Virus record (IMG/VR): IMGVR_UViG_3300009180_000243
Span: 1 to 21,900 of that record
Strand: one strand, 5' to 3'
DNA length: 21,900 bases
From: a virus
The notes under the pieces were generated by a model. The model had not been told where the DNA came from and ran no database searches. It was given only the letters and a program-made list of their open reading frames with translations. Positions within the stretch are counted from its first letter, which is position 1. Each line of letters opens with the position of its first letter. Made by a program: the position numbers and the translations under genes. Shown one piece after another: positions 2,597 to 20,540 of this stretch.

Positions 2597-2854
2597 ATGG
2601 CAGGAAAAGGTAGCGCGCCCGGAGAGCGGCGCGGCGGGCGCCAAAAAGGCACGCCCAACAAAAGCACGCAGGCCGTTAAGGACATGATCCTCGAGGCCCT
2701 CGCACAAAAGGGCGGCGCCGACTATTTGGCCCGTCAGGCCGATGAAAACCCGGCCGCCTTCATGACACTCGTTGGGAAAGTGCTTCCGCTGCAGGTCACC
2801 GGAGACGGCGGCGGGGCTTTGGTTTGCACATGGCTGCCGCCCAGCGAGTCGTAA
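2597..2854 (+). CDS. Terminase small subunit
   Basis: The 85-residue protein starts with a basic GERRGGRQKGTPNKST segment, a common N-terminus of small terminase subunits, followed by a helical MILEALAQKGGADYLARQA region and FMTLVGKVLPLQVTGDGGG. The last motif recurs in phage proteins encoded just before TerL. TerS recognises the packaging site and recruits TerL. The protein is short for the family. Its last 25 bases overlap terL, typical of coupled terminase genes. No strong Shine-Dalgarno sequence is close to the start; a GGAGG lies about 28 bases upstream, too far to act simply. Confidence 0.8.
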   Translation: MAGKGSAPGERRGGRQKGTPNKSTQAVKDMILEALAQKGGADYLARQADENPAAFMTLVGKVLPLQVTGDGGGALVCTWLPPSES

Positions 2855-4143
2855 CCATTCCATACTCGCCGCGCCGCGCGTTTCTCGGCCTGCACAACCG
2901 CAGGCAGCGGTGGGCCGTAGTTGTCGCGCATCGGCGCGCAGGCAAAACTGTCGCCTGCATTAACGAACTGATCAAGTGCGCGGTCACCGCCAAGCCGGGC
3001 GCGCGGTTTGCCTATGTGGCGCCATTCTTTCGCCAGGCTAAGGCCGTAGCGTGGGATTACCTCAAGACCTTCAGCCGCCCGCTGCCGAATTTGAAGGTGA
3101 ACGAGGCCGAACTGCGCGTGGACTTCGCGAACGGCGCCCGCATTCAGCTGTTCGGCGCAGACAATGCAGACGCATTGCGCGGCCTTGGCTTCGACGGACT
3201 GGTGGCCGACGAGTACGGCGACTGGAAGCCCAGCGTTTGGGGTTACGTCATTCGCCCGGCGCTGGCCGACAAAAGCGGCTGGGCCATTGTGATTGGCACG
3301 CCGAAAGGCCGGAACTCATTCTGGGAAACCTACCGCGACGCGCAGGCCAGCGACGACTGGTACGTCGCCACGATAAAGGCTAGCCAGTCCGGCCTGCTGC
3401 CCGCTGCCGAGCTCGAGGCCCTGCGCGCCGAACTGACCGACGACGCGTGGCGGCAGGAAATGGAGTGCGACTTCGACGCCGCGCTGCCGGGCGCCATATT
3501 CGGCAAGGAGCTCTACGAGCTGGAGCAATCGGGCCGCATGACGCGCGACCTGTACGACCCGGCGCTGCCCGTGCATGCGGTGTTCGACCTTGGGTACTCA
3601 GACGACACCGCCATTTGGTGGTTTCAGGTGCGCGACGAGCTGCGCCTCGTCGACTGCTACAGCAGCAACGGCATGTCGATTGCGCATTACAACGACGTGC
3701 TGCAAGCCAAGCGGTGGAAATACGGCGAGTGGCTTTGGCTGCCGCACGACGCCAGGGCGAAGTCGCTGCAAACAGGCCGGAGCATTGAAGAGCAGTTTCG
3801 CAGCCTCGGCTGGAAGCCGCGCATTGTTCCCGAATTGGGACTCGTCGACGGCATTCAGGCCGCGCGCCTAACGCTGGCCGATGCGTACTTCGACGAGCGC
3901 TGCCGGGAAGGCTTGGACGCCTTGAAGCAGTACCAGCGCGAGTTCGACGAAGACAAGAAATGTTTCCGCGACCGACCGCGCCACGACTGGACGAGCCACT
4001 ACGCGGACGCGTTTCGCTATGCGTGCTTGGTGTGGCGCGAAGAAATGAAACCGCGCGCACCAGCTGCGCCACGGTTCCAGCAAGATTTGACGATCAACGA
4101 AATTATTCGGCGCCAAACACGCCGACGACTTGAGGACGCGTAA
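2830..4143 (+). CDS. Terminase large subunit
   Basis: This 437-residue protein is the DNA-packaging ATPase/nuclease. The Walker A motif AHRRAGKT lies at residues 33-40. Walker B (FDGLVADEYGDW) places Asp127-Glu128 as metal and catalytic residues, and IGTPKGR (residues 155-161) resembles the coupling motif. The C-terminal RNase H-like nuclease begins with VFDLGYSDDTAIWW (Asp253) and continues through HDARAKSLQTGRSIEEQF. Its last conserved acid is in HDWTSHYADAFRYA near the end. It docks on the portal vertex, pumps DNA and cuts concatemers. ATG at 2830 is preferred over TTG at 2824, two codons upstream. The stop overlaps the next start (TAATG). Length is usual for the family, and all key residues are present. 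Confidence 0.95.
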   Translation: MAAAQRVVTIPYSPRRAFLGLHNRRQRWAVVVAHRRAGKTVACINELIKCAVTAKPGARFAYVAPFFRQAKAVAWDYLKTFSRPLPNLKVNEAELRVDFANGARIQLFGADNADALRGLGFDGLVADEYGDWKPSVWGYVIRPALADKSGWAIVIGTPKGRNSFWETYRDAQASDDWYVATIKASQSGLLPAAELEALRAELTDDAWRQEMECDFDAALPGAIFGKELYELEQSGRMTRDLYDPALPVHAVFDLGYSDDTAIWWFQVRDELRLVDCYSSNGMSIAHYNDVLQAKRWKYGEWLWLPHDARAKSLQTGRSIEEQFRSLGWKPRIVPELGLVDGIQAARLTLADAYFDERCREGLDALKQYQREFDEDKKCFRDRPRHDWTSHYADAFRYACLVWREEMKPRAPAAPRFQQDLTINEIIRRQTRRRLEDA

Positions 4144-6053
4144 TGCCAGTCATTAACACAACCATGCAGGGCGCCGCACTGACGGTGGACGCGTCTGGTG
4201 GCGTGCCGTCGACCGCGACGTATTCTGGAGGGCTTGCGCTGCGTTCGGACGGGGCGTTGTACACCGCGCCGATTGGGGGGAACACCTACGACCCGCGAAC
4301 GCTGTTGATTGGCGACAGCCATTTGCAAATGGGCTGGACGAACAACTCGGGAAACCTGAGCGCGTTTACCGTTTCTGCGGGCGTGGCGTCTTTAACAATC
4401 ACCAACCATAACATCGCTCCCGGCAATAAATTCACGCTAATTGACACAGCGAACTCGGCGACGCTTGACACTTGCGTCATGTCATATGCAGAAGTAACCG
4501 CGTTGACAGCGCCGACCAACAACACGCTGACGGCTTCAGCAACCGTGGCCGGCGTAACGATGGCAGACGGGTCATATACGTCAGGAAGAACATGGCTCGC
4601 CATTCCGTGGCAGCACCAGCGGGACAGCACGTTTCTGCACAGCATTAATGGTTGGAACGGTGCGCCGTTTGTGTTTACGCACAATTTCACAGCCAACGGC
4701 ACCAGCAGCGCCCAACATTTGGCGGCGCTGCCGAAATTGCAAAGCCAAGCGCCAAAGTCAACATACGCCAATGTGGTCATTTCGCTTGGCACCAACGCAA
4801 GCGTGGCCGGCCAAGGCATGTTCCAGCAGGCGACGTTGGCAACGGCGATTGCTGCCGCTGAAACCGAATACAAGAACATCATGGCGATTGCCGACGCCCT
4901 CTATTCAAACGGCACGGTTTACATTGCCATCCCCATCGGGGGCACTACGGGAACCACAAACACCGCCAATTTCACCCGCGCAGTGAGCTATTTGCGCCGC
5001 AAGCTTTTGCAAACCCGCCGACCGTATCGACTGCGGTTTTTTGACTTGTTCGGCTTATCTGTTGATGGTTCGGACGCTAACGGCTTAATGGTAGCAAATT
5101 ATCAGCCGGCATCTGCGAACAACCATTTGTCCACATATGGTAATTACCGAATTGCCAAAGCCGAAACATCGTGGGATTCGCGCCTTGGTTGGGATACCGC
5201 TAATCGGTACGCATGGAAACCGATGAGCTACCTCGACGACAACACCAACGCGGTGACGTTGTGGGCGGCCAGCACTTCGTACACCGTTGGCGCGGTGCGG
5301 ATGAACAACTACACGGTGTATCAATGTGTAGCGATCACTGGAGCGGGCACTTCCGCCAGCAGCGGTGGCCCAACTGGGGATGGCACCGCCATCACTGACA
5401 ACCAAGTCACATGGTCGTCGCTCGGGCCGGCGGCTGTTAATCTGGTGCAGAACGGCCTGATGCAAGGCACGGGCGGCACCAATAGCGCAGCGTTTGCAGG
5501 GGCCACCACAACGGTCCCCACGGGCTGGACTTTGCAATCGGCGACCAACGTCACCTTGGCGTCGTGTGCAACGGCTGGCAACAGCACAATCACCGTAAAG
5601 CCGACCGGAATTGATTCGACTCCTGGCTTTGGCTGGGATTTGTCGATTGCGTACACCGCCGCTGAAGGGGTGGTGACCTGTTACCAAAACTGCCCGCTGA
5701 TGGCGAAAGGCGGCAACTGGTATCAAGCCAGAATGACCGTCACCGGCAAAACCGCCCTAAATACCGTGTTGAAAGCGGTGAGTTTGAGAATCCAGCCCAC
5801 GTTCGCGGGCACGGGAACATTCGTGGCGCAGGCAATGGCCACCGGCAACAACTCGACAACGATTCCGCTCGATACGACCGACACTTACGAAGTCGTGACC
5901 GCGCCGTTTTTTGTGCCGGCGTCTTTGGGCACATCAACCGACAACCAGATCTACATTGAAATCACGTCTAACGGCACGGCCGGCACGGTGAATTTGCAAC
6001 TGTCGAACATTGCCTACTACCCAGTTCGCGACCCGGCTGCCATTCCCGTCTAA
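4143..6053 (+). CDS. Virion-associated SGNH/GDSL hydrolase with carbohydrate-binding modules
   Basis: The 636-residue protein appears to be a receptor-binding or glycan-modifying virion protein. SGNH landmarks are visible: LLIGDSHLQMG (nucleophile Ser59), a possible block II in SINGWNG (about 168-173), VVISLGTNAS (Gly216, Asn218) and NNHLSTYGNYRIA (His328). The usual Asp three residues before that His is Ala325. Between blocks I and II, about 75 residues (74-150) form a beta-rich insertion. Residues 370-428 (WAASTSYTVGAVRMNNYTVY, then VTWSSLG) look like a chitin-binding/CBM5-12-type module. From 431, an NLVQNGLMQGTGG start leads to a jelly-roll-like domain. Such enzymes often deacetylate surface polysaccharide. 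Two sampled lines (5041-5160) are about 44% GC against about 63% in the portal gene, suggesting separate origin. The start is coupled to the terL stop. Confidence 0.75.
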   Translation: MPVINTTMQGAALTVDASGGVPSTATYSGGLALRSDGALYTAPIGGNTYDPRTLLIGDSHLQMGWTNNSGNLSAFTVSAGVASLTITNHNIAPGNKFTLIDTANSATLDTCVMSYAEVTALTAPTNNTLTASATVAGVTMADGSYTSGRTWLAIPWQHQRDSTFLHSINGWNGAPFVFTHNFTANGTSSAQHLAALPKLQSQAPKSTYANVVISLGTNASVAGQGMFQQATLATAIAAAETEYKNIMAIADALYSNGTVYIAIPIGGTTGTTNTANFTRAVSYLRRKLLQTRRPYRLRFFDLFGLSVDGSDANGLMVANYQPASANNHLSTYGNYRIAKAETSWDSRLGWDTANRYAWKPMSYLDDNTNAVTLWAASTSYTVGAVRMNNYTVYQCVAITGAGTSASSGGPTGDGTAITDNQVTWSSLGPAAVNLVQNGLMQGTGGTNSAAFAGATTTVPTGWTLQSATNVTLASCATAGNSTITVKPTGIDSTPGFGWDLSIAYTAAEGVVTCYQNCPLMAKGGNWYQARMTVTGKTALNTVLKAVSLRIQPTFAGTGTFVAQAMATGNNSTTIPLDTTDTYEVVTAPFFVPASLGTSTDNQIYIEITSNGTAGTVNLQLSNIAYYPVRDPAAIPV

Positions 6054-8374
6054 TGGACGCCGCCAGTCTCGAAAAAGTCACCGACCTCGGTACCTCGCCG
6101 CAGGCGGTGGCGCGCCGCTGGAAGCTCGAGCTGAAGCTGGCTTCCAAGCGCGAGGAGGCATGGCGCAAAAAGGCGCGCGACATTTGCAAGCTGTACACGC
6201 CGGACAACCCGATGGCGGCGAGCTTCAACATTCTGTGGACGAACACCGAAACCCTGCGCCAGGCCTGCTACAACAGCCTGCCGCAGCCGAAGGTTCGCCG
6301 TCGCTACAACGACGAAGACCCGTTGGGCAAGGCGGTCAGCGACGTGTTGACACGCGCGCTGGAGTTCTGCCAAGACGCCTACGACTTCGACTCCGTGCTG
6401 AAGGGCGACGTGTTGGCCATGCTGCTGCCTGGCCGCGCGGTGTCTCGCGTGAGATACGTTCCCAGCCTCCGGCAGGTGGGCGTGACCGAAGACACGCACG
6501 TCGAGCAGAACGAAGAGCCGACGCATGAGGCCCAGGAGGGCGCTTACGAGGAGATCGACTGGGAGCAGGTCGTCGTCGAGCGCGTGCAGTGGGACGATTT
6601 CCGCCTGAGTGCCGCCCGCTGTTGGGACGACGTGTGCTGGGTGGCGTTTCGGCACCACCTGAATCGCGAAGATCTGATCGAAAAGTTCGGCAACGAGATC
6701 GGCAACGCGGTCCCGCTGGACTCCGTGGCCGACGAAGACGTGAAGGCGCAAGCCGACATGGAAATGCTGTTCAAAACCGCCGAGGTCTGGGAGATCTGGG
6801 ACAAGGACGAACAGCAGGTGGTGTGGATTGCGACCGGCTACCCGAAGCCTGTGAAGATGCAGGCAGATCCGCTGAAACTGCAGGGCTTCTTCCCGTGCCC
6901 GCGCCCGCTGTACGCCATTGAGCAGCACGACACGCTGGTGCCAGCGGCCCTGTATAGCCAGTACGAGCAGCAGGCGAAAGAGCTCAACAAGATCTCGCGC
7001 CGGATCAACGGCATTGTCGACGCCCTCAAAGTGCGCGGCATTTACGACGCCACGCTGACCGAGCTCGGCGAGCTGATGAAGGCCGGCGACAACGAACTGG
7101 TGCCGGCGGCCAACGTCACCGCGCTGCTGGAGCGTGGCGGGCTAGAGAAAGCGATTTGGATGCTGCCCATGGAAACGGCAGCGTTTGTGTTAAAGGAACT
7201 CTACGCGCAGCGCGAGGCGACGAAGCAGGTGATCTACGAGATCACCGGGATCGCTGACATCATGCGGGCCTCGAGCGATCCGGCCGAGACGTTCGGCGCG
7301 CAGAAGATCAAGACGCAGTGGGGCACGCAGCGCTTGCAGCGCCTGCAGCGCGAGGTCCAGCGCTACATTCGCGACATTGTGCGGATCAAGGCTGAGATCA
7401 TCAGCGAAAAGTTCCAGCCCGAGACGCTGGAGAAAATGACGCTGGTCAACATGCCGCACGACGCGGAGGTGAGGGCCGAGCTGCAGCAGCAACTCCAGCA
7501 GTGGCAGCAGGCCGCCATGCAGGCCGCGCAGCAAGGCCAGCCGCCGCCGGCGCCCCCGCAGCCGCCGCAGGTGGTGACGTGGGAAACCTGCATCGACACG
7601 ATGCGCAACGACGCGGCGCGCACTTACCACATAGACATTGAGACCGACTCGACGCTGTCGGCTTCGCAGGACGAAGACATAACCGGCATCAGCCAGTTGA
7701 TGCAGGGCGTGACGCAGCTGATGCAGGGCCTTGCGCCCATTGTGCAGGCCGGCGTGATGCCGATCGACGCGGTCAAAGAGCTAGTGCTGGCCGCCGTGCG
7801 CCGGGCGCGAATGGGCTCGGCCGTTGAGGACGCGCTGACCAAGATGCAGGCGCCGCCGCCGCCCAGCCAGGACAACACCGAAGCGCAGAAACTGCAGATG
7901 CAGGCCCAGCAGCACGCCGCCGAACTGCAGGCCACCGCACAGCTCGAGCAGATGAAGGCGCAGCTGCAGGTCGAGGCCGAGCGCGGCAAGCAGCAGGCGC
8001 AGGCCGAGCAGTCGGCGCAGGAAAACCAGATGCAGGCCGAACGCGAGATGCAGAAGCAGCAGCTCGCCGCCGAAGTCGAGGCCCGCAAGCTGGAGCTGCA
8101 GCAGACGAACGACCTGCAGCGCATGGAATTTGAGAAATGGAAGGCCGAGCTCGAGGCCAGCACCCGCATTCTGGTGGCGCAACTCAGCGCACAGCAGATG
8201 GTCGCCCCCGAGGTTGGGGCAGCCGCCGCCGACAACGTGGTCGACGCGGTGGGCGATCCGCTGCTCGACATGCACCGCGAGACGCTGGCTGGTATTCAGC
8301 AACTGGTGGCCGCCATGGCGCGCCCCAAGACGATCGTGCGAGGCCCTGACGGCCGCGCCGTGGGGCTGACCTGA
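6053..8374 (+). CDS. Portal protein
   Basis: The 773-residue protein has the features of podovirus portals. There is an N-terminal helical stem region (RRWKLELKLASKREEAWRKK), then FNILWTNTETLRQACYNSLP and a wing region. The central crown/clip portion includes ALYSQYEQQAKELNKISRRI, ITGIADIMRASSDPAETFGA and a GTQRLQRLQREVQRYIRDIV helix. These last two are strongly typical of phage portals. A proline-rich linker (PPPAPPQPP, residues 497-505) precedes a final domain. Residues about 600-715 form a very long Gln/Glu/Ala coiled coil, like the barrel of P22-type portals. The dodecamer is the DNA channel and the binding platform for TerL, scaffold and adaptor. The gene begins at a TAATG overlap and ends overlapping the next ATG. 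Confidence 0.92.
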   Translation: MDAASLEKVTDLGTSPQAVARRWKLELKLASKREEAWRKKARDICKLYTPDNPMAASFNILWTNTETLRQACYNSLPQPKVRRRYNDEDPLGKAVSDVLTRALEFCQDAYDFDSVLKGDVLAMLLPGRAVSRVRYVPSLRQVGVTEDTHVEQNEEPTHEAQEGAYEEIDWEQVVVERVQWDDFRLSAARCWDDVCWVAFRHHLNREDLIEKFGNEIGNAVPLDSVADEDVKAQADMEMLFKTAEVWEIWDKDEQQVVWIATGYPKPVKMQADPLKLQGFFPCPRPLYAIEQHDTLVPAALYSQYEQQAKELNKISRRINGIVDALKVRGIYDATLTELGELMKAGDNELVPAANVTALLERGGLEKAIWMLPMETAAFVLKELYAQREATKQVIYEITGIADIMRASSDPAETFGAQKIKTQWGTQRLQRLQREVQRYIRDIVRIKAEIISEKFQPETLEKMTLVNMPHDAEVRAELQQQLQQWQQAAMQAAQQGQPPPAPPQPPQVVTWETCIDTMRNDAARTYHIDIETDSTLSASQDEDITGISQLMQGVTQLMQGLAPIVQAGVMPIDAVKELVLAAVRRARMGSAVEDALTKMQAPPPPSQDNTEAQKLQMQAQQHAAELQATAQLEQMKAQLQVEAERGKQQAQAEQSAQENQMQAEREMQKQQLAAEVEARKLELQQTNDLQRMEFEKWKAELEASTRILVAQLSAQQMVAPEVGAAAADNVVDAVGDPLLDMHRETLAGIQQLVAAMARPKTIVRGPDGRAVGLT

Positions 8375-9748: not shown

Positions 9749-10312
9749 ATGTCACTGCTGCTAAGCCAGCAGTCGGCCGTATGGGCTGTCACCGCTGCGC
9801 TTGTTGAGGGCGCCGACACCCTAGCCGCGCAACTGTCGCCCGTGGTGGCGGCTTCCAGCGCCGTAACCGACGGCGCAGACGTCCTGCAGGCGCAAGTCGG
9901 CCCGGTGCCGGCGTTTACGAGCGCCTCGACGGACGGCGCCGACGTGCTGTCCGCAGCGGTCGAGGTGCTGTCCGCAACAGATTTCTCAGCGTCCCTGCTG
10001 GACGGCGCAGACACCTTGGCGGCGCTGGTCGCGTTACCTACCAAACTGGGCGGCGACGATGTGCCGCGCGTCGAGATATGGACGACGCGCAAGGCGAAGG
10101 CCGTGCGCAAGCGCATCACGCGCAAACTGATAGAACTCAAAGCCGCCGCGCCGGACTTGGTCGAGAACCTCGCGGTTCCGGCCCCGCAGCCAGACTGGTC
10201 GGCCTATGTCGCGCAGCTGCAGGCCGTGGCCGCACAGCTCGAGGCGCTGCAAGCACGCCGCTGGGACGAATGGCTCGAACAAGACGACGAGGAGATTCTG
10301 CTGCTGCTATGA
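9749..10312 (+). CDS. Repeat-containing phage protein (four DGAD-type repeats), 187 aa
   Basis: Residues 20-96 carry four copies of an Asp/Glu-Gly-Ala-Asp-(Thr/Val)-Leu motif, at residues 20, 41, 62 and 85, spaced 21, 21 and 23 residues. Each is followed by an Ala/Val-rich stretch, suggesting stacked beta hairpins or a short solenoid. The rest is different: a basic helix (TTRKAKAVRKRITRKLIELK, residues 112-131), a Pro-rich linker and an acidic, Gln/Leu-rich C-terminus ending EEILLLL. Two-part layout suggests a surface repeat region attached by a helical anchor. The stop overlaps the next ATG (ATGA). Function is unknown; a head-fibre or decoration role is a guess from context. Confidence 0.75.
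   Translation: MSLLLSQQSAVWAVTAALVEGADTLAAQLSPVVAASSAVTDGADVLQAQVGPVPAFTSASTDGADVLSAAVEVLSATDFSASLLDGADTLAALVALPTKLGGDDVPRVEIWTTRKAKAVRKRITRKLIELKAAAPDLVENLAVPAPQPDWSAYVAQLQAVAAQLEALQARRWDEWLEQDDEEILLLL
9806..10036 (+). repeat. Protein-level tandem repeat, about 21 residues, four copies
   Basis: The encoded motif (D/E)GAD(T/V)L recurs four times with spacing 21, 21 and 23 residues, with surrounding Ala/Val-rich sequence. DNA identity between copies is limited to the motif core, so the repeats are old or under protein-level selection. Confidence 0.75.
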
Positions 10313-13852: not shown

Positions 13853-14452
13853 ATGGACAACCGCATTCCGTTTTTTGATTTCGTTCAGCGAGAACACGGC
13901 GTCGACGCCGAGCAGTCGACCGCAGCCGGCTATGAAGTGCCGAAACTCGTCACCTTCATCCGCATCACCCCGCATGGCCACCGTGGCGACCCCATGGAGT
14001 TTTTCGCCGACGACTTCGTCGAGCGCAAAGGCCGCGAAGCCCGCGAGGGCCGTTACGACCACAGCTGGGTGGCGCAGTTCAAAAACGCGCTGAGCGAATA
14101 CCGCGCCGGCCGCGAGCTGCCGCGCGAAGGCACGCCGCTCATGACGTGGGAACGCATTCTGAAAAGCCGCCGCGAACAGCTGGCCGCAAAGTTCCCGACC
14201 CTTGAGGACTTGGCCGCCTGCCCGGACACCACGCTCGGCGAAATTGGCCTCGACGGCCGCGTGCTGCGCGACATGGCCAAAGCCGAGCTGCAGGCGAAGA
14301 AGGACCTCGAGCCCGTCGTGCGCGAGCTCGCGCTGGCGAAAGAGGAAAACCGCCAGCTGCGCGACCAGGTGGAGCGGTTAGCCGCGCGCCTCGACGCGCT
14401 GGAAGACGACAAACCCAAGCGGCACCGCCGCACCATTGACGAGGCCGCGTAA
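13853..14452 (+). CDS. Conserved virion-module protein with coiled-coil C-terminus, 199 aa
   Basis: The start (ATG at 13853) is set by AAGGAG four bases upstream. The N-terminal half has an RIPFFDFVQREHGVD start and KLVTFIRITPHGHRGDPMEF, then RYDHSWVAQFKNALSEYR and REGTPLMTWERI. Residues 115-145 (FPTLEDLAACPDTTLGEIG, then LDGRVLRDMAKAEL) look like the helix-hairpin-helix-type stretch seen in a widespread phage protein family encoded after the coat gene. Residues about 147-185 form a coiled coil, and the tail is basic (KPKRHRRT). I recognise the general family but not a proven role; a head-tail connection or assembly function is inferred. The stop overlaps the tail spike start (TAATG). Confidence 0.72.
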   Translation: MDNRIPFFDFVQREHGVDAEQSTAAGYEVPKLVTFIRITPHGHRGDPMEFFADDFVERKGREAREGRYDHSWVAQFKNALSEYRAGRELPREGTPLMTWERILKSRREQLAAKFPTLEDLAACPDTTLGEIGLDGRVLRDMAKAELQAKKDLEPVVRELALAKEENRQLRDQVERLAARLDALEDDKPKRHRRTIDEAA

Positions 14453-16146
14453 TGCAAAAGTACGTCAACGACATTGCCACCGTTGTTGGCGGCTCACTCG
14501 CGCCGTTGGCCAGCGCCAGCTGCGCGGTGTATCTCACCGGCACCACGACCCTCGCGTCGTTGTATTCGGATAACGGCGTTACGGCGCTGGCGAACCCCAC
14601 CACCAGCTCTGCCACCGGCCGCCTGCAGTTCTATGCGGCCGACGGGCGCTACGACATTGTTTGCAGCAAGGCCGGGTACGCGACCACGACCATTGCGGAC
14701 GTGCTGCTCGACGACCGGGACACGGTGAGCATTAACGATTTCGGCGCGGTTGGGGATGGGGTGACGAACAACACGGCGACGGTAACGGCTGTCAGTGCTT
14801 ATCCCAAGGTTTATGTGCCGGACGGCACCTACAACACCACGTTTGTGAATTACACGACCGTCCCCGGCAGCTGGTGGGGTGTTGGCCAGATTGCCGATGC
14901 ATCAAACCGCAAACTGGCCCCGTGGTACGCGAACGCCAACGCAGCGCCGGCAAGCACCGGCAGCGCCAACAGCCTGTTGACCGCGTTTGACGGCGACCTG
15001 ACCCGTTGCCAATTCCCGGTGGGGCACAACATTCAAGGCGCGGCAACGCTGACACAACCGACGACTGGCTATGCGTATGTGAACGAGGTTTATCCTCACT
15101 TTACATACCTCACCAACTTCAGCGGCTGGAACCAATCAACGTCAGGAAACACCGGAAGAACGGCTGCGTGCGCGTACCGCACCAAGGTAGACAATTACGG
15201 GCAAGGTGATGCGGTTTGCTACAACGCCACGGCCTTTGTCACCGGCACTCGCGCCGGCAGCACCAATTTTCTAGCTAACCCAGCCGCCGTTCTTTTCAAC
15301 GGCGACATGACGGCAGGCGCTGATGGCGTGTACCTCAACCCCTACGAAACCATTTGCATTGACGGCGGTTATGACGTTGCTTGCGTGGGGCTGGTAAACA
15401 ATTTCAACCGCACCAACGCGACGGGCGCGAAGTCGGTTTTCTGGCACGGGTATCGGGCGCAAAACATTGGGTCTGCCACTTGCGACGCCCTAATTTCGGC
15501 TACTGGCCAATGGGTGACGGGCTTAGATTTGGCCATGAGCGGGTTGAATTTTGGCGCGGGCAAGGGCGCAGTCAGCCTAAAAGCAAACGACCGAATCTAT
15601 TTCAACAGCACCGCTGGCGCGTCCGGAAGTCTGAATGCCGACATACGCACGACTGTTTTTGGTACGTCATGGATGACGCTGGACAGTACGTCAGTAGATT
15701 TGCAATTTGCCAACAGCGGCGTCACCCAGTTTGCCGTGGGCACGACCGGATCTGCCGTAAATTATTTTCGGGTGAACGGTGGCCCTGCTGGTTCTGGCCC
15801 GCAATTTCGTGCGGTCGGCTCAGATACAAACATCAGTGTGGGATATCTCACCAAGGGCACCGGCTTCCATTTTTTCTACTCAAACGTCGCTGCGGCTGCG
15901 GTTCAGTTTGCGATTAACGGCAACCAAACTAGCGCGGTCAATTATTTGGAAGCATCAGGTTTCGGCGCAGGGTTTAGTCCAACCCTTACCGCAAAAGGTT
16001 CGGACACCAACATTGACCTATCTCTTATTACAAAAGGCACTGGTGTTGTGCAGTACGGCACTTATACCGCCGGAGTAGTGGCACAAGCCGGATATATCAC
16101 AATCAAAGACGCGGGCGGCACCACTCGCCGGCTGCTGGTGGGGTAA
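14452..16146 (+). CDS. Tail spike/fibre protein
   Basis: The 564-residue protein carries an N-terminal virion-binding domain (about residues 1-88). It includes a VYLTGTTTLASLYSDNG segment, GRLQFYAADGRYDIVCSKAG, and a linker ending DVLLDDRD, a typical phage spike attachment module. Residues 92-105 (VSINDFGAVGDGVT) are the start of a pectate-lyase-type beta-helix, as in many depolymerising spikes. The C-terminal part has a 60-residue repeat with A-GSDTNI-TKGTG motifs, ending ITIKDAGGTTRRLLVG, probably trimerising. I cannot identify catalytic residues, so enzyme activity is open. Two sampled lines near the 3' end are 45-48% GC, lower than neighbours, suggesting exchange of the receptor-binding part. 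The start is coupled to the preceding stop. Confidence 0.82.
   Translation: MQKYVNDIATVVGGSLAPLASASCAVYLTGTTTLASLYSDNGVTALANPTTSSATGRLQFYAADGRYDIVCSKAGYATTTIADVLLDDRDTVSINDFGAVGDGVTNNTATVTAVSAYPKVYVPDGTYNTTFVNYTTVPGSWWGVGQIADASNRKLAPWYANANAAPASTGSANSLLTAFDGDLTRCQFPVGHNIQGAATLTQPTTGYAYVNEVYPHFTYLTNFSGWNQSTSGNTGRTAACAYRTKVDNYGQGDAVCYNATAFVTGTRAGSTNFLANPAAVLFNGDMTAGADGVYLNPYETICIDGGYDVACVGLVNNFNRTNATGAKSVFWHGYRAQNIGSATCDALISATGQWVTGLDLAMSGLNFGAGKGAVSLKANDRIYFNSTAGASGSLNADIRTTVFGTSWMTLDSTSVDLQFANSGVTQFAVGTTGSAVNYFRVNGGPAGSGPQFRAVGSDTNISVGYLTKGTGFHFFYSNVAAAAVQFAINGNQTSAVNYLEASGFGAGFSPTLTAKGSDTNIDLSLITKGTGVVQYGTYTAGVVAQAGYITIKDAGGTTRRLLVG
15754..16044 (+). repeat. Repeat within the tail spike C-terminus (two copies, 60-residue period)
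   Basis: Residues 435-471 and 495-531 of the spike align over 37 positions with 20 identities, including an AVNY start, the GSDTNI core and a TKGTG end. The DNA copies have diverged much more than the protein motif, so the duplication is old. Confidence 0.8.
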
Positions 16147-16581: not shown

Positions 16582-17322
16582 GTGACAATCGTAGTCCCCG
16601 CGCTTAGTGCCAGCGGCAGCCTGACGCTGCTGCAACTCATTCAGTCGGTGTGCCGGCGCATTGGTATTCTGGCGCCGAACGCGGTAGTCACCAGCACAGA
16701 TCCGCAGGTGATCCAGCTGCTCGAGCTCAGCCTTGAGGAAGGCCGCGAGCAGCTGTCGCGCTACTCGTGGCAGGCCCTGCAGCAGGAAGCCACGTTCACC
16801 ACGGTGGCCACCCAACTGCAAACGACGCTGGCAGCCATCACCACCGGGTTTGAATGGATCGTCAACAACACCATCTGGAACCGCTCGCTGCGCCGGCCGG
16901 TGTATGGCCCGGATTCCCAGCAGGACTGGCAGCAGTCGCAGGCCATGCAGATCAACGGGCCGTTCAACCGGTTCCGCATCATCGCTGGCGCGATCAATTT
17001 TTATCCGGTGCCAACAGCCGGGCAGACGTGCGCGTTCGAGTACATTTCAAACGCTTGGATCACCACCAACCTTGGCGTGGGATCTTCGACGTGGACGTCT
17101 GATCTCGACACCACGGTGCTCGACGAGCAGCTCGTCATTCTCGGCACGGTGTGGCGCTGGAAAGCGGCCAAGGGCCTGCAGTACGCCGAAGACTTCCGCA
17201 AGTACGAAGCCCGCCTGCTCGACGTCATGAACCGCGACGGGGCCAAGCCCACGCTGACCATGACCGGCGCCAAGTACGACGTGCCGCCGGTCGTCATCGT
17301 GCCGGCTGGAAGCTGGAACTAA
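16582..17322 (+). CDS. Head-to-tail adaptor protein
   Basis: The 246-residue protein (GTG start) has the pattern of podovirus connector/adaptor proteins. Its N-terminal part is helical (LLQLIQSVCRRIGILAPN, then QVIQLLELSLEEGREQLSRY, then SWQALQQEATF). Further on are WIVNNTIWNRSLRRPVYGPD, FRIIAGAINFYPVPTAGQTC and a TVWRWKAAKGLQYAEDFRKY helix. Such proteins bind under the portal, close the packaged head and provide the platform for the nozzle. Immediate coupling to the nozzle-like gene (stop and start overlap at 17320-17324) supports the assignment. No tail tube or tape-measure genes are seen, consistent with a short tail. Exact family not determined. Confidence 0.78.
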   Translation: MTIVVPALSASGSLTLLQLIQSVCRRIGILAPNAVVTSTDPQVIQLLELSLEEGREQLSRYSWQALQQEATFTTVATQLQTTLAAITTGFEWIVNNTIWNRSLRRPVYGPDSQQDWQQSQAMQINGPFNRFRIIAGAINFYPVPTAGQTCAFEYISNAWITTNLGVGSSTWTSDLDTTVLDEQLVILGTVWRWKAAKGLQYAEDFRKYEARLLDVMNRDGAKPTLTMTGAKYDVPPVVIVPAGSWN

Positions 17323-19100
17323 TGCGCCAAGCCGCCCAACGCGCGCAGATCTCGCGCACGGTCTCGGTGCCCGCGCCCACCGGCGGCTGGAACACCCGCG
17401 ACGCCTTGGCGCAGCAGAAACCAAACGAGGCCGTGATCCTCGACAACTTCTTTTGCTTGCCGTACTCGGTGCGTGTGCGGCCAGGCTATTCCAACCACGT
17501 CACCGGCCTCGCAACCACCGCGCGTACGCTGATGAGTTACTCGCCGGCCAGCGGTGGGTCGCGCCTGTTTGCCGCTGCGGGCGCAAACATTGTCGACGTC
17601 AGCGTGCCCGGCCCGGCGCCCGTTGCGTCACTGACGCACCTGTCGAGCGACTCTTTCCGCAAGGTGGTCTTCGGCACGCCGGGCGGCCATTTTCTCGTGG
17701 CGGTGAACGGCGCCGACCTGCCTATCGTTTGGAACGGCACCAGCTGGGGCAATATCTTTAGCGCCGCGTTCGCCGTAACGGTCACCTCGATCACAAGCTC
17801 ACTCACCGCTTGCACTGTCACGATGAGCGGCGCGCACAACCTGCAGACCGGCATGTCGGTCACCATCACAGGCGCCACGGAACCCCCCTACAACGGCACG
17901 TTCGTGATTGTGCGAACCGGCGCCAACACGTTCACCTACACCGCCCTCAGCGTGCCCGGCACCAGCCCCGCAACCGGCGCCCCAGTGGTGACGCCTAACA
18001 TTAACGCTTCCATCACCGGCGTCTTGCCCAGCACCTTCACGCATGTGAACGCGCACAAGAACCGGCTGTTCTTTATCGCCAACAGCAGCCTCACCGCGTA
18101 CTACCTGCCCATTAACAGCATTGGCGGCGCAGCGCAGGCGCTCAATTTTCAGTCGCTTTTTACGCGCGGCGGCTACTTGGTGGCGATGGACACATGGACC
18201 GTCGACGGCGGCTATGGTCTGGACGATTACGCGGCGTGGATTACCTCCGAGGGGCAGGTGGCCGTCTATCGCGGCACCGACCCGGCATCGCCCACTACAT
18301 GGTCGCTGGTAGGCCTCTATCAGCTCAGCGCGCCCGTTGGCCGCAACTGCTTCCAGAAATACGGCGGCGATCTGCTGTGCATCACCAAGGAAGGCTTGGC
18401 ACCACTCACCAAAGCGCTGATTTCCTCGGCCGTCACCGACCGCATGATGTTGTCCGACAACATTCAGCAAACCATATCGGACTACACCACGCTTTATGGC
18501 GCGAATTCGGGCTGGCAGATTCTGCTGTACCCCGAAGAAAACCTGTTGCTGGTGAACGTGCCGACCAGTAACACGGTCAGCTATCAGCTGGTCATGAACA
18601 CCATTTCAGGCGCGTGGAGCCAGTTCAAAAACTGGAACGCTGCGTGCTGGGAACGGCACCAAGGCGCGATTTATTTCGCGACCGGCACCAACGTCGCTCT
18701 AGCGTGGACCGGCAACCAGGACAACGGCCAGCCCATCAGTTTTGAGGGCTTGCAGTCCTTCAACTACGCCGGTAACCCCTCGCAGTTGAAGCAGGTGAAA
18801 ATGCTGCGCCCACTGCTGCTGGCCGACGGCAGGCCCAACGTGCTGCTGGGCGTGAACGCCGATTTCGACACCAGCACGCCCACTGGCATCCCGAGCTTCA
18901 CGCAAAACACAGCCTCCGTGTGGGACACGGCGACGTGGGACGCCGGCGTCTGGACCGGCGACCCCGCCATCAAGCGCGACTGGCAAACCGCGTTCGCCAT
19001 GGGCTACTGCTTCGCTGCGCACATGGTCGGCACCATTAGCGTCAGCCCACTGAGCTGGATCTCGACCGACTACGTCGTCGAGGCCGGGGGCGTCATTTAG
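17322..19100 (+). CDS. Tail nozzle/hub-like protein
   Basis: The 592-residue protein begins RTVSVPAPTGGWNTRDALAQ, then KPNEAVILDNFFCLPYSVRV, a strongly conserved start of podovirus tail-tip (nozzle-type) proteins. It then runs through beta-propeller-like blades (VDVSVPGP, FLVAVNGADLPIVWNGTSWG, LLCITKEGLAPLTKALISSA, WQILLYPEENLLLVNVP, MNTISGAWSQFKNWNAACWE). Residues about 159-224 form an inserted beta module with HNLQTGMSVTITG and YNGTFVIVRTGANTFTYTAL, a small domain common in phage tail proteins. In other phages this protein forms the nozzle through which DNA leaves. The ATG at 17322 overlaps the adaptor stop. Assignment rests on position plus the N-terminal motif. Confidence 0.78.
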   Translation: MRQAAQRAQISRTVSVPAPTGGWNTRDALAQQKPNEAVILDNFFCLPYSVRVRPGYSNHVTGLATTARTLMSYSPASGGSRLFAAAGANIVDVSVPGPAPVASLTHLSSDSFRKVVFGTPGGHFLVAVNGADLPIVWNGTSWGNIFSAAFAVTVTSITSSLTACTVTMSGAHNLQTGMSVTITGATEPPYNGTFVIVRTGANTFTYTALSVPGTSPATGAPVVTPNINASITGVLPSTFTHVNAHKNRLFFIANSSLTAYYLPINSIGGAAQALNFQSLFTRGGYLVAMDTWTVDGGYGLDDYAAWITSEGQVAVYRGTDPASPTTWSLVGLYQLSAPVGRNCFQKYGGDLLCITKEGLAPLTKALISSAVTDRMMLSDNIQQTISDYTTLYGANSGWQILLYPEENLLLVNVPTSNTVSYQLVMNTISGAWSQFKNWNAACWERHQGAIYFATGTNVALAWTGNQDNGQPISFEGLQSFNYAGNPSQLKQVKMLRPLLLADGRPNVLLGVNADFDTSTPTGIPSFTQNTASVWDTATWDAGVWTGDPAIKRDWQTAFAMGYCFAAHMVGTISVSPLSWISTDYVVEAGGVI

Positions 19101-19513
19101 TGCTGGTCGTCGGCCCTGACGTTGTTCAGTGGGTCGCGACGCGCACTAACGAATTCGGGAACTTTGGCGCCGCCGTTGGCATTGGCTGGGCGCGCAACGG
19201 CGAGCTGGTGGCGGGCGTCGCCTATAACGAGTTCAACGGCGCGAACATTAACGCCCACATTGCCAGCAGTGGCCGCCATTGGCTGACCCGCGACTTTCTG
19301 TGGGCAATTTTCGACTACCCGTTCCGGCAGCTTGGGGTGCAGCGGATCACCGGGCTGGTGGGGGAAGGCAACGCCGCAGCCCGTCGGTTCGATGAGCACC
19401 TCGGCTTCACGTTAGAAACAAAACTCACTGGCGCGCACCCGACTGGCGATTTGCTGGTGTACGTCATGTGGAAACACGATTGCAGATGGCTGGAGAAAAA
19501 CCATGCGCAGTGA
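19100..19513 (+). CDS. GNAT-type N-acetyltransferase in the tail cluster
   Basis: The 137-residue protein has the reduced GNAT layout. An N-terminal strand pair (AAVGIGWARNGELVAGVAYN) is followed by FLWAIFDYPFRQLGVQRITG and the cofactor-binding segment LVGEGNAAARRFDEHLGFTL, where NAAARRF and the following LGF are typical of acetyl-CoA binding. The C-terminal strand is LLVYVMWKHDCRWL. GNAT proteins transfer an acetyl group from acetyl-CoA to an amine, but the substrate cannot be read from sequence. The gene uses GTG and overlaps the nozzle stop (TAGTG); it also overlaps the next gene by 11 bases. Related genes occur in podovirus structural clusters, with no role established that I know of. Confidence 0.8.
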   Translation: MLVVGPDVVQWVATRTNEFGNFGAAVGIGWARNGELVAGVAYNEFNGANINAHIASSGRHWLTRDFLWAIFDYPFRQLGVQRITGLVGEGNAAARRFDEHLGFTLETKLTGAHPTGDLLVYVMWKHDCRWLEKNHAQ

Positions 19514-20540
19514 ATTGTTAGGCCTGATCACGCGACGCGGCCGTCGCCTTGGCATGTGGGCGAAAGACAGCCCGGAAGCGCCGCCTGCGCCGGACTTTCT
19601 GGCCGCCGCCAAGGAAACCGCTGCCGGCAACCGCGCCAATTCCCTCGAGGCGCTGCAAAACAACCGGATCACTCAGAACACGCCGTTCGGCAGTATCACC
19701 TACACCAAGGACAAGAACGGCAACTGGGTTCAGAACCTCAATTACAGCAGCGCGCAGCAGGGCCTGTTAAACCGCCAAAACCAAATCTCAAGCCAAATTG
19801 CCGGGCAGCTCGGGACGTACCTCAAACGGTTTGGCGGCAGCCTCACAGGCGACGCCGGCAAGGTTGGCCAAGACGCGCTGATGGCTCGCTACCAGCCGCA
19901 GATTAACCAAGACCGGCAGGCGTTGCAGGCGCAGCTGGCCAACCAGGGGATCATGCAAGGCAGTGAGGCGTACAACAACGCCATGAGAACTCAGGGCCAG
20001 CAGGAAAACGACCTGTACCGCCAAGCCGGCCTGTACGGCCTTGAGGCCGGCCAGAAGGTGCAGGATCACTACATGAACCTGCTGGGCGCTGCGCGCCAAC
20101 AGTCGTCGCCTACTGCGCCCAACTTTGCGCCCGTGCCCCAGCAGCAATACACCGCCGGCCCCGATGTGCTGGGCGCCACGCAGTCGGCAGGAAACTATGC
20201 GCAGAACCTCTACAACTCGCAGGTGGCGCAGTACAACGCGGACGGTGGCTGGTTCGGCCCTATTGGTGGTGCAGCGCTCGACATTGGCAAAAGCGCGGCG
20301 GCCGGCGCGGCTGGCGGCTACGCTGCGGGCAGATTCTCCGACCGCCGCCTCAAAAAGGACGTGCAGGAAATTGGCAAAACCGACTCGGGCTTGCCGCTCT
20401 ACCTGTTCCGCTACCTTTGGGACAACGAAAACGAGTCGCCGCGCGTGGGCGTCATGGCGCAGGACGTCCTCGAGGTCATGCCGGACGCTGTGATGACGCG
20501 GCCCGACGGTTACCTAATGGTCGACTACGCGAGGATCTGA
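19503..20540 (+). CDS. Virion protein with C-terminal peptidase S74 domain
   Basis: The 345-residue protein has three parts. Residues 1-75 are basic then polar (AKDSPEAPPAPDFLAAAKET, and TQNTPFGSITYTKDKNGNWV, a motif common in phage internal proteins). Residues about 80-250 form a Gln/Ala-rich helical region (QISSQIAGQLGTYLKRF and LANQGIMQGSEAYNNAMR). Residues 254-277 are Gly/Ala-rich. The C-terminal 68 residues (from FSDRRLKKD) form a short S74-type domain. Ser279 and Lys284 are at the positions of the catalytic Ser-Lys pair, and GVMAQDVLEVMPDAV is well matched. S74 domains usually assist folding of trimeric spikes and cut themselves off. The start is set by overlap with the acetyltransferase gene. 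Position suggests an internal or tail-tip protein. Confidence 0.75.
   Translation: MRSELLGLITRRGRRLGMWAKDSPEAPPAPDFLAAAKETAAGNRANSLEALQNNRITQNTPFGSITYTKDKNGNWVQNLNYSSAQQGLLNRQNQISSQIAGQLGTYLKRFGGSLTGDAGKVGQDALMARYQPQINQDRQALQAQLANQGIMQGSEAYNNAMRTQGQQENDLYRQAGLYGLEAGQKVQDHYMNLLGAARQQSSPTAPNFAPVPQQQYTAGPDVLGATQSAGNYAQNLYNSQVAQYNADGGWFGPIGGAALDIGKSAAAGAAGGYAAGRFSDRRLKKDVQEIGKTDSGLPLYLFRYLWDNENESPRVGVMAQDVLEVMPDAVMTRPDGYLMVDYARI

Follow-up and report, generated by a model that had tools for sequence, protein, structure and literature searches.

In the 21.9-kb virus record from IMG/VR analysed here over its whole length (the window), the terminase large subunit gene (terL) and the portal gene are separated by a single ORF, and the question raised by this locus is what kind of gene occupies the interval and how it came to be there. 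An initial annotation, made from the letters of the sequence, had described an ORF that lies between the two genes and is joined to both by overlapping start and stop codons, and this description proved accurate. The three genes are arranged as follows.

2824..4143, plus strand: terL (terminase large subunit), left border of the slot (phrog_2, E 8.7e-39; PF03237)
4143..6053, plus strand: slot occupant, the tag and module protein of 636 amino acids reported here, with an ATG start (ORF)
6053..8374, plus strand: portal gene, right border of the slot (phrog_12082, E 7.1e-166)

The sequence TAATG, a one-base overlap of stop and start codons, is found at both the terL/occupant and the occupant/portal junctions. 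The TAATG that holds the portal start was present in the 7 same-backbone contigs inspected (the window and six sisters), irrespective of the occupant, and a GAGG motif in the final codons of terL, which resembles a ribosome-binding site for the occupant, was likewise kept across the seven. Profile searches of the full 636-aa protein against Pfam, PHROGs and NCBIfam gave no match. No homologue of this protein, nor of the occupant of sister contig L042, was detected among the isolated phages searched, and in the bacterial genomes searched its larger part (the module described below) was without any relative.

Our favoured reading, which we hold with moderate confidence, is that the terL-portal interval of this podophage-type clade is a fixed slot for exchangeable surface-recognition genes, and that the occupant is a module-swapped receptor-binding enzyme, likeliest a capsid head spike.

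The terL-portal interval in related phages

The usual adjacency of terL and portal, which had been assumed at the outset, was confirmed in five isolated relatives found via the portal protein. The portal lies directly 3' of terL in Mx8, Bradyrhizobium phage ppBjS10J-1, Rhizobium phage RHph_I3_18, Stenotrophomonas phage BUCT555 and Ruegeria phage 45A6, some of these records leaving the gene in the place of terL unnamed. The uncultured phage MW202489 is an exception, with three genes between the two, one of which carries a PhoD-like phosphatase annotation. In Herminiimonas contaminans (Burkholderiales), a related prophage (portal 58%) holds yet another small protein in the slot.

A portal search of viral contigs produced 73 loci, and both genes could be placed in 52 of them. 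The interval was absent in 5 of the 52 and measured at most about 3 kb in the other 47, whose main occupants fell into 20 sequence clusters. In the distant relatives L062, L069 and L070, the interval is filled by several small, ordinary-looking genes.

Contigs that share the backbone of the window (terL 95-99% identical) differ in the occupant of the slot: a 79-aa spike-base-like protein in L009, a protein of 262-268 aa in L010, L011, L012, L019 and L043, and a 711-aa protein in L042. The window-type gene was found at the same site in L001, L002 and L005, so that the occupant is not unique to the window contig. L009 and L010 match the window's DNA up to 4143-4147 and again from 6045-6048, borders that coincide with the terL stop codon and the position beside the portal ATG. 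In L042 the homology runs on to 4270, because the first 40 residues of an N-terminal tag are common to both proteins and a different module follows. By these comparisons the interval is a hypervariable slot in the window's own clade, and the one-off insertion originally proposed gives way to a recurrent cargo slot that holds unrelated occupants at the same site.

A backbone tag joined to an exchanged module

The window protein is composed of two parts that differ in composition and in distribution among phages.

4143..4283, plus strand: N-terminal tag, codons 1-47, backbone-type at 65% GC (composition, DNA comparison)
4284..6034, plus strand: exchanged module, with DNA homology to L003, L004, L006 and L007 (blastn borders, identities)

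The overall GC content of the ORF is 57.0% (GC3 0.68), versus 63.3% in terL (GC3 0.79) and 64.8% in the portal gene (GC3 0.87). A step occurs at codon 48, codons 1-47 having a backbone-like 65.2% GC and the remainder 56.5%. The description of the gene as low-GC thus applies from codon 48 onward but not to its first 47 codons; the values quoted in its support were exact (44.2% at 5041-5160, 63.3% at 6121-6180) but represent extremes.

The 589-aa module (56% GC) recurs in unrelated phages at 86-94% amino acid identity, behind different tags. Counterparts of residues 48-631 are present in L003 and L004, whereas the truncated contigs L006 and L007 contain parts of this region; no similarity to the terL or portal of the window was detected within the available DNA of these four contigs. 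In blastn comparisons the homology starts at 4284 in L003, L004 and L007 and ends at 6034 in L003, L004 and L006, and the N-termini that precede the module in L003, L004 and L007 are unrelated to the window's tag. L004 encodes a Mu gpT-like major head protein, while L007 carries a different terminase and a portal with a weak SU10-like match; in both, the module is positioned in the head gene region. Outside the module, L003, L004 and L007 have 52-54% GC, consistent with a lower-GC source pool for the module.

The initial 426 nt of the window's module have 89.0-89.4% DNA identity to L004 and L007, versus 78.5% to the sister contig L002, even though most of the backbone of this sister (L013, same contig) is 92-99% identical to that of the window. 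Since the module is nearer to unrelated phages than to a sister with a near-identical backbone, horizontal exchange is shown. An assembly chimera was rejected on the presence of the same arrangements in separate contigs (L001, L002 and L005; L003 and L004). The sequence comparisons thus establish the slot itself, the limits of the cassette, the junction of tag and module, and the horizontal exchange.

A conserved N-terminal tag, whose first 40 codons precede a different module in L042, together with a C-terminal module that is found behind other N-termini in L003, L004 and L007, gives the organization of a modular receptor-binding protein. Good support for the proposed swapped-in receptor or surface-modifying protein comes from the unrelated occupants on the same backbone and from the recurrence of the module, with the amendment that the tag belongs to the backbone and the exchange covers only what follows it. 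The same data bear on the very improbable reading of an ancestral, vertically inherited gene of the clade that is merely fast-evolving. Such a gene would account for its occurrence at the same site in L001, L002 and L005, the kind of relatives that the initial annotation had considered damaging to its own proposal had their composition also matched; however, the composition is mismatched and the other sisters differ. This reading was rejected on the unrelated occupants of 95-99% identical backbones and on the incongruent identities of module and backbone.

A second candidate gene of the tag/module type was noted in the window at 14452-16146, a 564-aa ORF of 57.5% GC with a break at about 14775. 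Its first ~108 codons are conserved, DNA homology to L011 and L013 stops at 14774-14778, and beyond the break the identity to L010 falls to 77-82%. Two further segments of the window, 8158-8320 (the C-terminal coiled/low-complexity part of the portal) and 9823-10034, are without DNA homology to L010, L011 and L043, in a backbone that is otherwise 88-98% identical.

Modular structure of the window protein

The regions delineated within the protein, with their predicted nature, are listed below.

4284..5180, plus strand: SGNH/GDSL-like core, residues 48-346 (PF13472 in homologues, invariant residues, Foldseek)
4347..4586, plus strand: beta segment inside the core, following the GDS block directly, borders approximate (predicted strands; gain in PF13472 match on removal)
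5262..5435, plus strand: weak CBM5/12-like motif (WAASTSYTVGAVRMNNYTVYQC...) (PF02839 in homologues)
5439..6050, plus strand: beta-rich C-terminal region (predicted strands, low confidence; kept among homologues)

S59 (in GDSH), G186, N218 (in GTN) and H328 of the window protein correspond to blocks I, II, III and V of the SGNH hydrolases, and the Ser, Gly, Asn and His of these blocks are invariant among the homologues. Canonical members of this group carry an Asp three residues ahead of the block V His (DxxH). This position is Ala325 in the window protein, and likewise Ala in L002 and L004, which renders catalysis uncertain. In uncut form the L004 core, which shares 91% identity with the window's core, matches PF13472 at E 3.6e-5, and after removal of the nested beta segment the L004 and L002 cores match at 3.7e-6 to 8.9e-6; the homologues score 24.8-28.0 bits, below the cut-off of 32.9 bits. 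PF13472 gave no match to the window's own copy, in which 5 aa are inserted after GTN.

Two AlphaFold models were of low confidence (pLDDT 38 and 44). In Foldseek, the top matches of the second model (pLDDT 44) were SGNH esterases (2q0q, E 0.0018, prob 0.98; none below 0.001), and its other leading matches included PAF-acetylhydrolase and a peptidoglycan O-acetylesterase. Sequence searches of the PDB with the module or the core gave no meaningful match, those to arenavirus glycoprotein and complement being judged chance. Alignment of the core with L039 and L042 by hhalign, using a profile almost without diversity, yielded nothing, and a home-made GDSL profile scored only slightly above shuffles. 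Sub-threshold Pfam matches to 'Rota_NS26' and 'EDR4' were taken as chance.

The GDS-type hydrolase core of the initial annotation therefore stands in part: the PF13472 matches of homologues, the Ser, Gly, Asn and His residues and a structure prediction in which SGNH esterases lead the fold matches speak for it, but the window copy is itself unmatched, the DxxH Asp is absent and the model is of low confidence. Together these data give moderate support to a divergent SGNH/GDSL hydrolase fold. The chitin-binding-like module fared similarly. PF02839 (CBM_5_12) was matched by the homologues in L004 (E 0.075) and L002 (E 5.8), far below the gathering score, and the window copy gave no match. The C-terminal region is a possible jelly-roll sugar-binding domain. 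The protein can be described as an SGNH-like putative enzyme, possibly O-deacetylating, with predicted modules of sugar-binding type.

Other occupants of the slot

Enzymes of related kinds were recognized elsewhere. The occupants of L039 (PF13472, E 2.7e-21) and L045 (E 6.6e-7, slightly under the cut-off) are GDSL hydrolases, and those of L015 and L016 are polysaccharide deacetylases (PF01522). The module of L042 is SGNH-like by motif (VTGDSYV...DIHLTVRGY), with a weak match to PF00657 (E 0.018).

Another set of occupants is related to the head spikes of the gene transfer agent RcGTA. The three ~80-aa occupants tested (L024, L059 and L060) all match NF048002, the family of the RcGTA head-spike base, and an alignment of eleven ~80-aa occupants matches the solved base Rcc01079 (6tb9, E 2.5e-7). 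A homologue of the head-spike fibre is present in L069, with matches to NF048003 and to the solved Rcc01080 (E 8.6e-45); its fibre domain has further PDB matches to baseplate and triplex proteins. In the L039 slot a spike base is followed by the GDSL hydrolase, an order that parallels rcc01079-rcc01080; this hydrolase also matches tail-protein PHROGs. All 14 spike-base ORFs in the contig DNA examined are located in the terL-portal interval or a short way upstream of the portal gene. The window protein has no NCBIfam match to the base (NF048002) or the fibre (NF048003), and a search of the window for a spike-base homologue found none anywhere.

The slots of L015, L016, L017 and L018 share a recurrent first ORF of ~160 aa with a common N-terminus GRLAGTTLNNGIETLQRAVVGSDGSQWTLEQ, which may represent another base/adaptor family, without a PHROG match. 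The second ORFs behind it (500-834 aa) are unrelated. A small domain matching phrog_9998 occurs in the window's amidase (17151-19100, residues 210-277) and in the enzyme-type occupants L015, L017 and L045, which suggests a reusable nested accessory domain.

Proposed function and alternative explanations

The window protein is, judged from its sequence, probably a swappable receptor-binding esterase of head-spike type; its association with the virion, its location on the head and its substrate are inferred. In the proposed mechanism, the short backbone-specific N-terminal tag would hold the protein on the particle, and the horizontally acquired 589-aa module would recognize and de-esterify a host surface polysaccharide (capsule or O-antigen) through its SGNH esterase-like core with the nested beta segment, followed by the CBM5/12-like motif and the beta-rich, sugar-binding-type end. 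Attached at the capsid as a head spike, it would make a first, reversible capture of capsule or O-antigen, after which the separate S74-type tail fibre (19503-20540) would act. The RcGTA base and fibre homologues among the occupants make the capsid the likeliest attachment point, and the head-region position of the module in unrelated phages favours the same site. The 'adhesin' of the initial annotation is thus retained as a receptor-binding protein but is better described, given these homologues, as a head-spike-like receptor-binding enzyme. Points that count against the favoured reading are the lack of any family match to the full-length protein, the low confidence of the structure models, the Ala in place of the DxxH Asp and the small, ordinary-looking genes in the interval of L062, L069 and L070.

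Since no base protein for the tag was found in the window, attachment at the neck or tail must also be considered. The protein would then be an exchangeable receptor-binding enzyme on the portal/neck or tail, an ordinary tailspike or tail fibre encoded in an unusual place. Of the SGNH receptor-binding proteins known so far, the majority are tail fibres or tailspikes (PMC13123978, PMC11058221, PMC11654681), the occupant gene is translationally coupled to portal, and the baseplate/triplex matches of the L069 fibre and the tail-protein matches of the L039 hydrolase point the same way. We nevertheless consider this reading unlikely, though a serious contender, because the slot also holds homologues of spike base and spike fibre, the S74-type tail fibre is encoded separately and the module has a head-region location in unrelated phages. 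Less probable still is a moron, a non-structural cargo gene that would modify surface polysaccharide in the infected cell or lysogen, for example excluding other phages. A gene that is exchangeable, foreign in composition and esterase-like in its core would suit such a role, surface-modifying genes do occur in phages, and a GNAT-like gene is present elsewhere in the window. Against it, the gene is embedded and coupled within the late packaging/head operon, the backbone retains the tag while the modules change, the predicted C-terminus is of sugar-binding type and head-spike homologues share the slot.

In the rest of the window, the GNAT-like acyltransferase gene (phrog_4470, 19100-19513) lies directly ahead of the S74-chaperone tail-fibre gene. 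Upstream of terL, a RusA-like resolvase and a weak Q-like antiterminator match (1113-1505 and 2026-2475) suggest a lambdoid-style temperate layout.

Comparison with known systems and implications

The RcGTA head spike consists of a base, a pentamer on the capsid, and a fibre held via its N-terminal residues 2-10, and attachment to the capsule takes place through the head fibres (PMC7296036, PMC10218006). Both components (Rcc01079 and Rcc01080; GhsA/GhsB) have homologues in the terL-portal slot of related phages, whereas in Rhodobacter the two spike genes stand outside the main GTA cluster (PMC8601537). If the head-spike model is right, the window protein would share with the RcGTA spike a short N-terminal anchor and a sugar-binding body (PMC7296036, PMC10218006). 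It differs in having no sequence similarity to either component and in its enzyme-like core. As it matches neither spike family, and the window encodes no spike base, it would work like an RcGTA spike rather than be a member of that group.

The modular receptor-binding proteins of Klebsiella and E. coli phages similarly combine a conserved N-terminal anchor with an exchangeable depolymerase module that spreads horizontally (PMC8262889, PMC10408124). They form part of the tail and are encoded with its other genes, whereas the gene described here lies between terL and portal, and the occupants of the slot change class completely. Receptor-binding esterases of the SGNH type are an established feature of Klebsiella prophages (PMC13123978), and such phage proteins, thought to deacetylate surface polysaccharide, have an SGNH/esterase-type domain to which the putative SGNH-like core of the window protein would correspond (PMC13123978, PMC11058221, PMC11654681). 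The window gene differs in its location outside the tail genes, in the beta segment after the GDS block and in the missing DxxH Asp. Each of these elements has been described before: receptor-binding proteins with an anchor and a swappable module (PMC8262889, PMC10408124), receptor-binding proteins of SGNH type, and the head spikes of GTAs. What appears new is a hypervariable, translationally coupled terL-portal slot with head-spike homologues and sugar-modifying enzymes; a search of the open literature found no described terL-portal receptor-binding slot, which does not prove its absence elsewhere.

More tentatively, and with slightly less than even confidence, we suggest that head spikes of the RcGTA type belong to a wider system, in which a podophage-type clade maintains a dedicated, hypervariable terL-portal head-spike slot, and binding and polysaccharide-modifying capsid spikes are exchanged as entire genes and as modules joined to a tag, even across unrelated phages.

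Receptor-binding genes are usually sought near the tail genes. A slot in the packaging/head operon would for this reason be missed by annotation pipelines, and reading the terL-portal interval offers a simple rule by which new polysaccharide esterases, deacetylases and binding domains could be found. The near-identical backbones with different recognition genes also provide a natural series. The slot suggests that phages use enzymatic capsid spikes resembling those of the RcGTA gene transfer agent, and, if the wider reading is true, the capsid, besides the tail, would be a fast-evolving determinant of host recognition.
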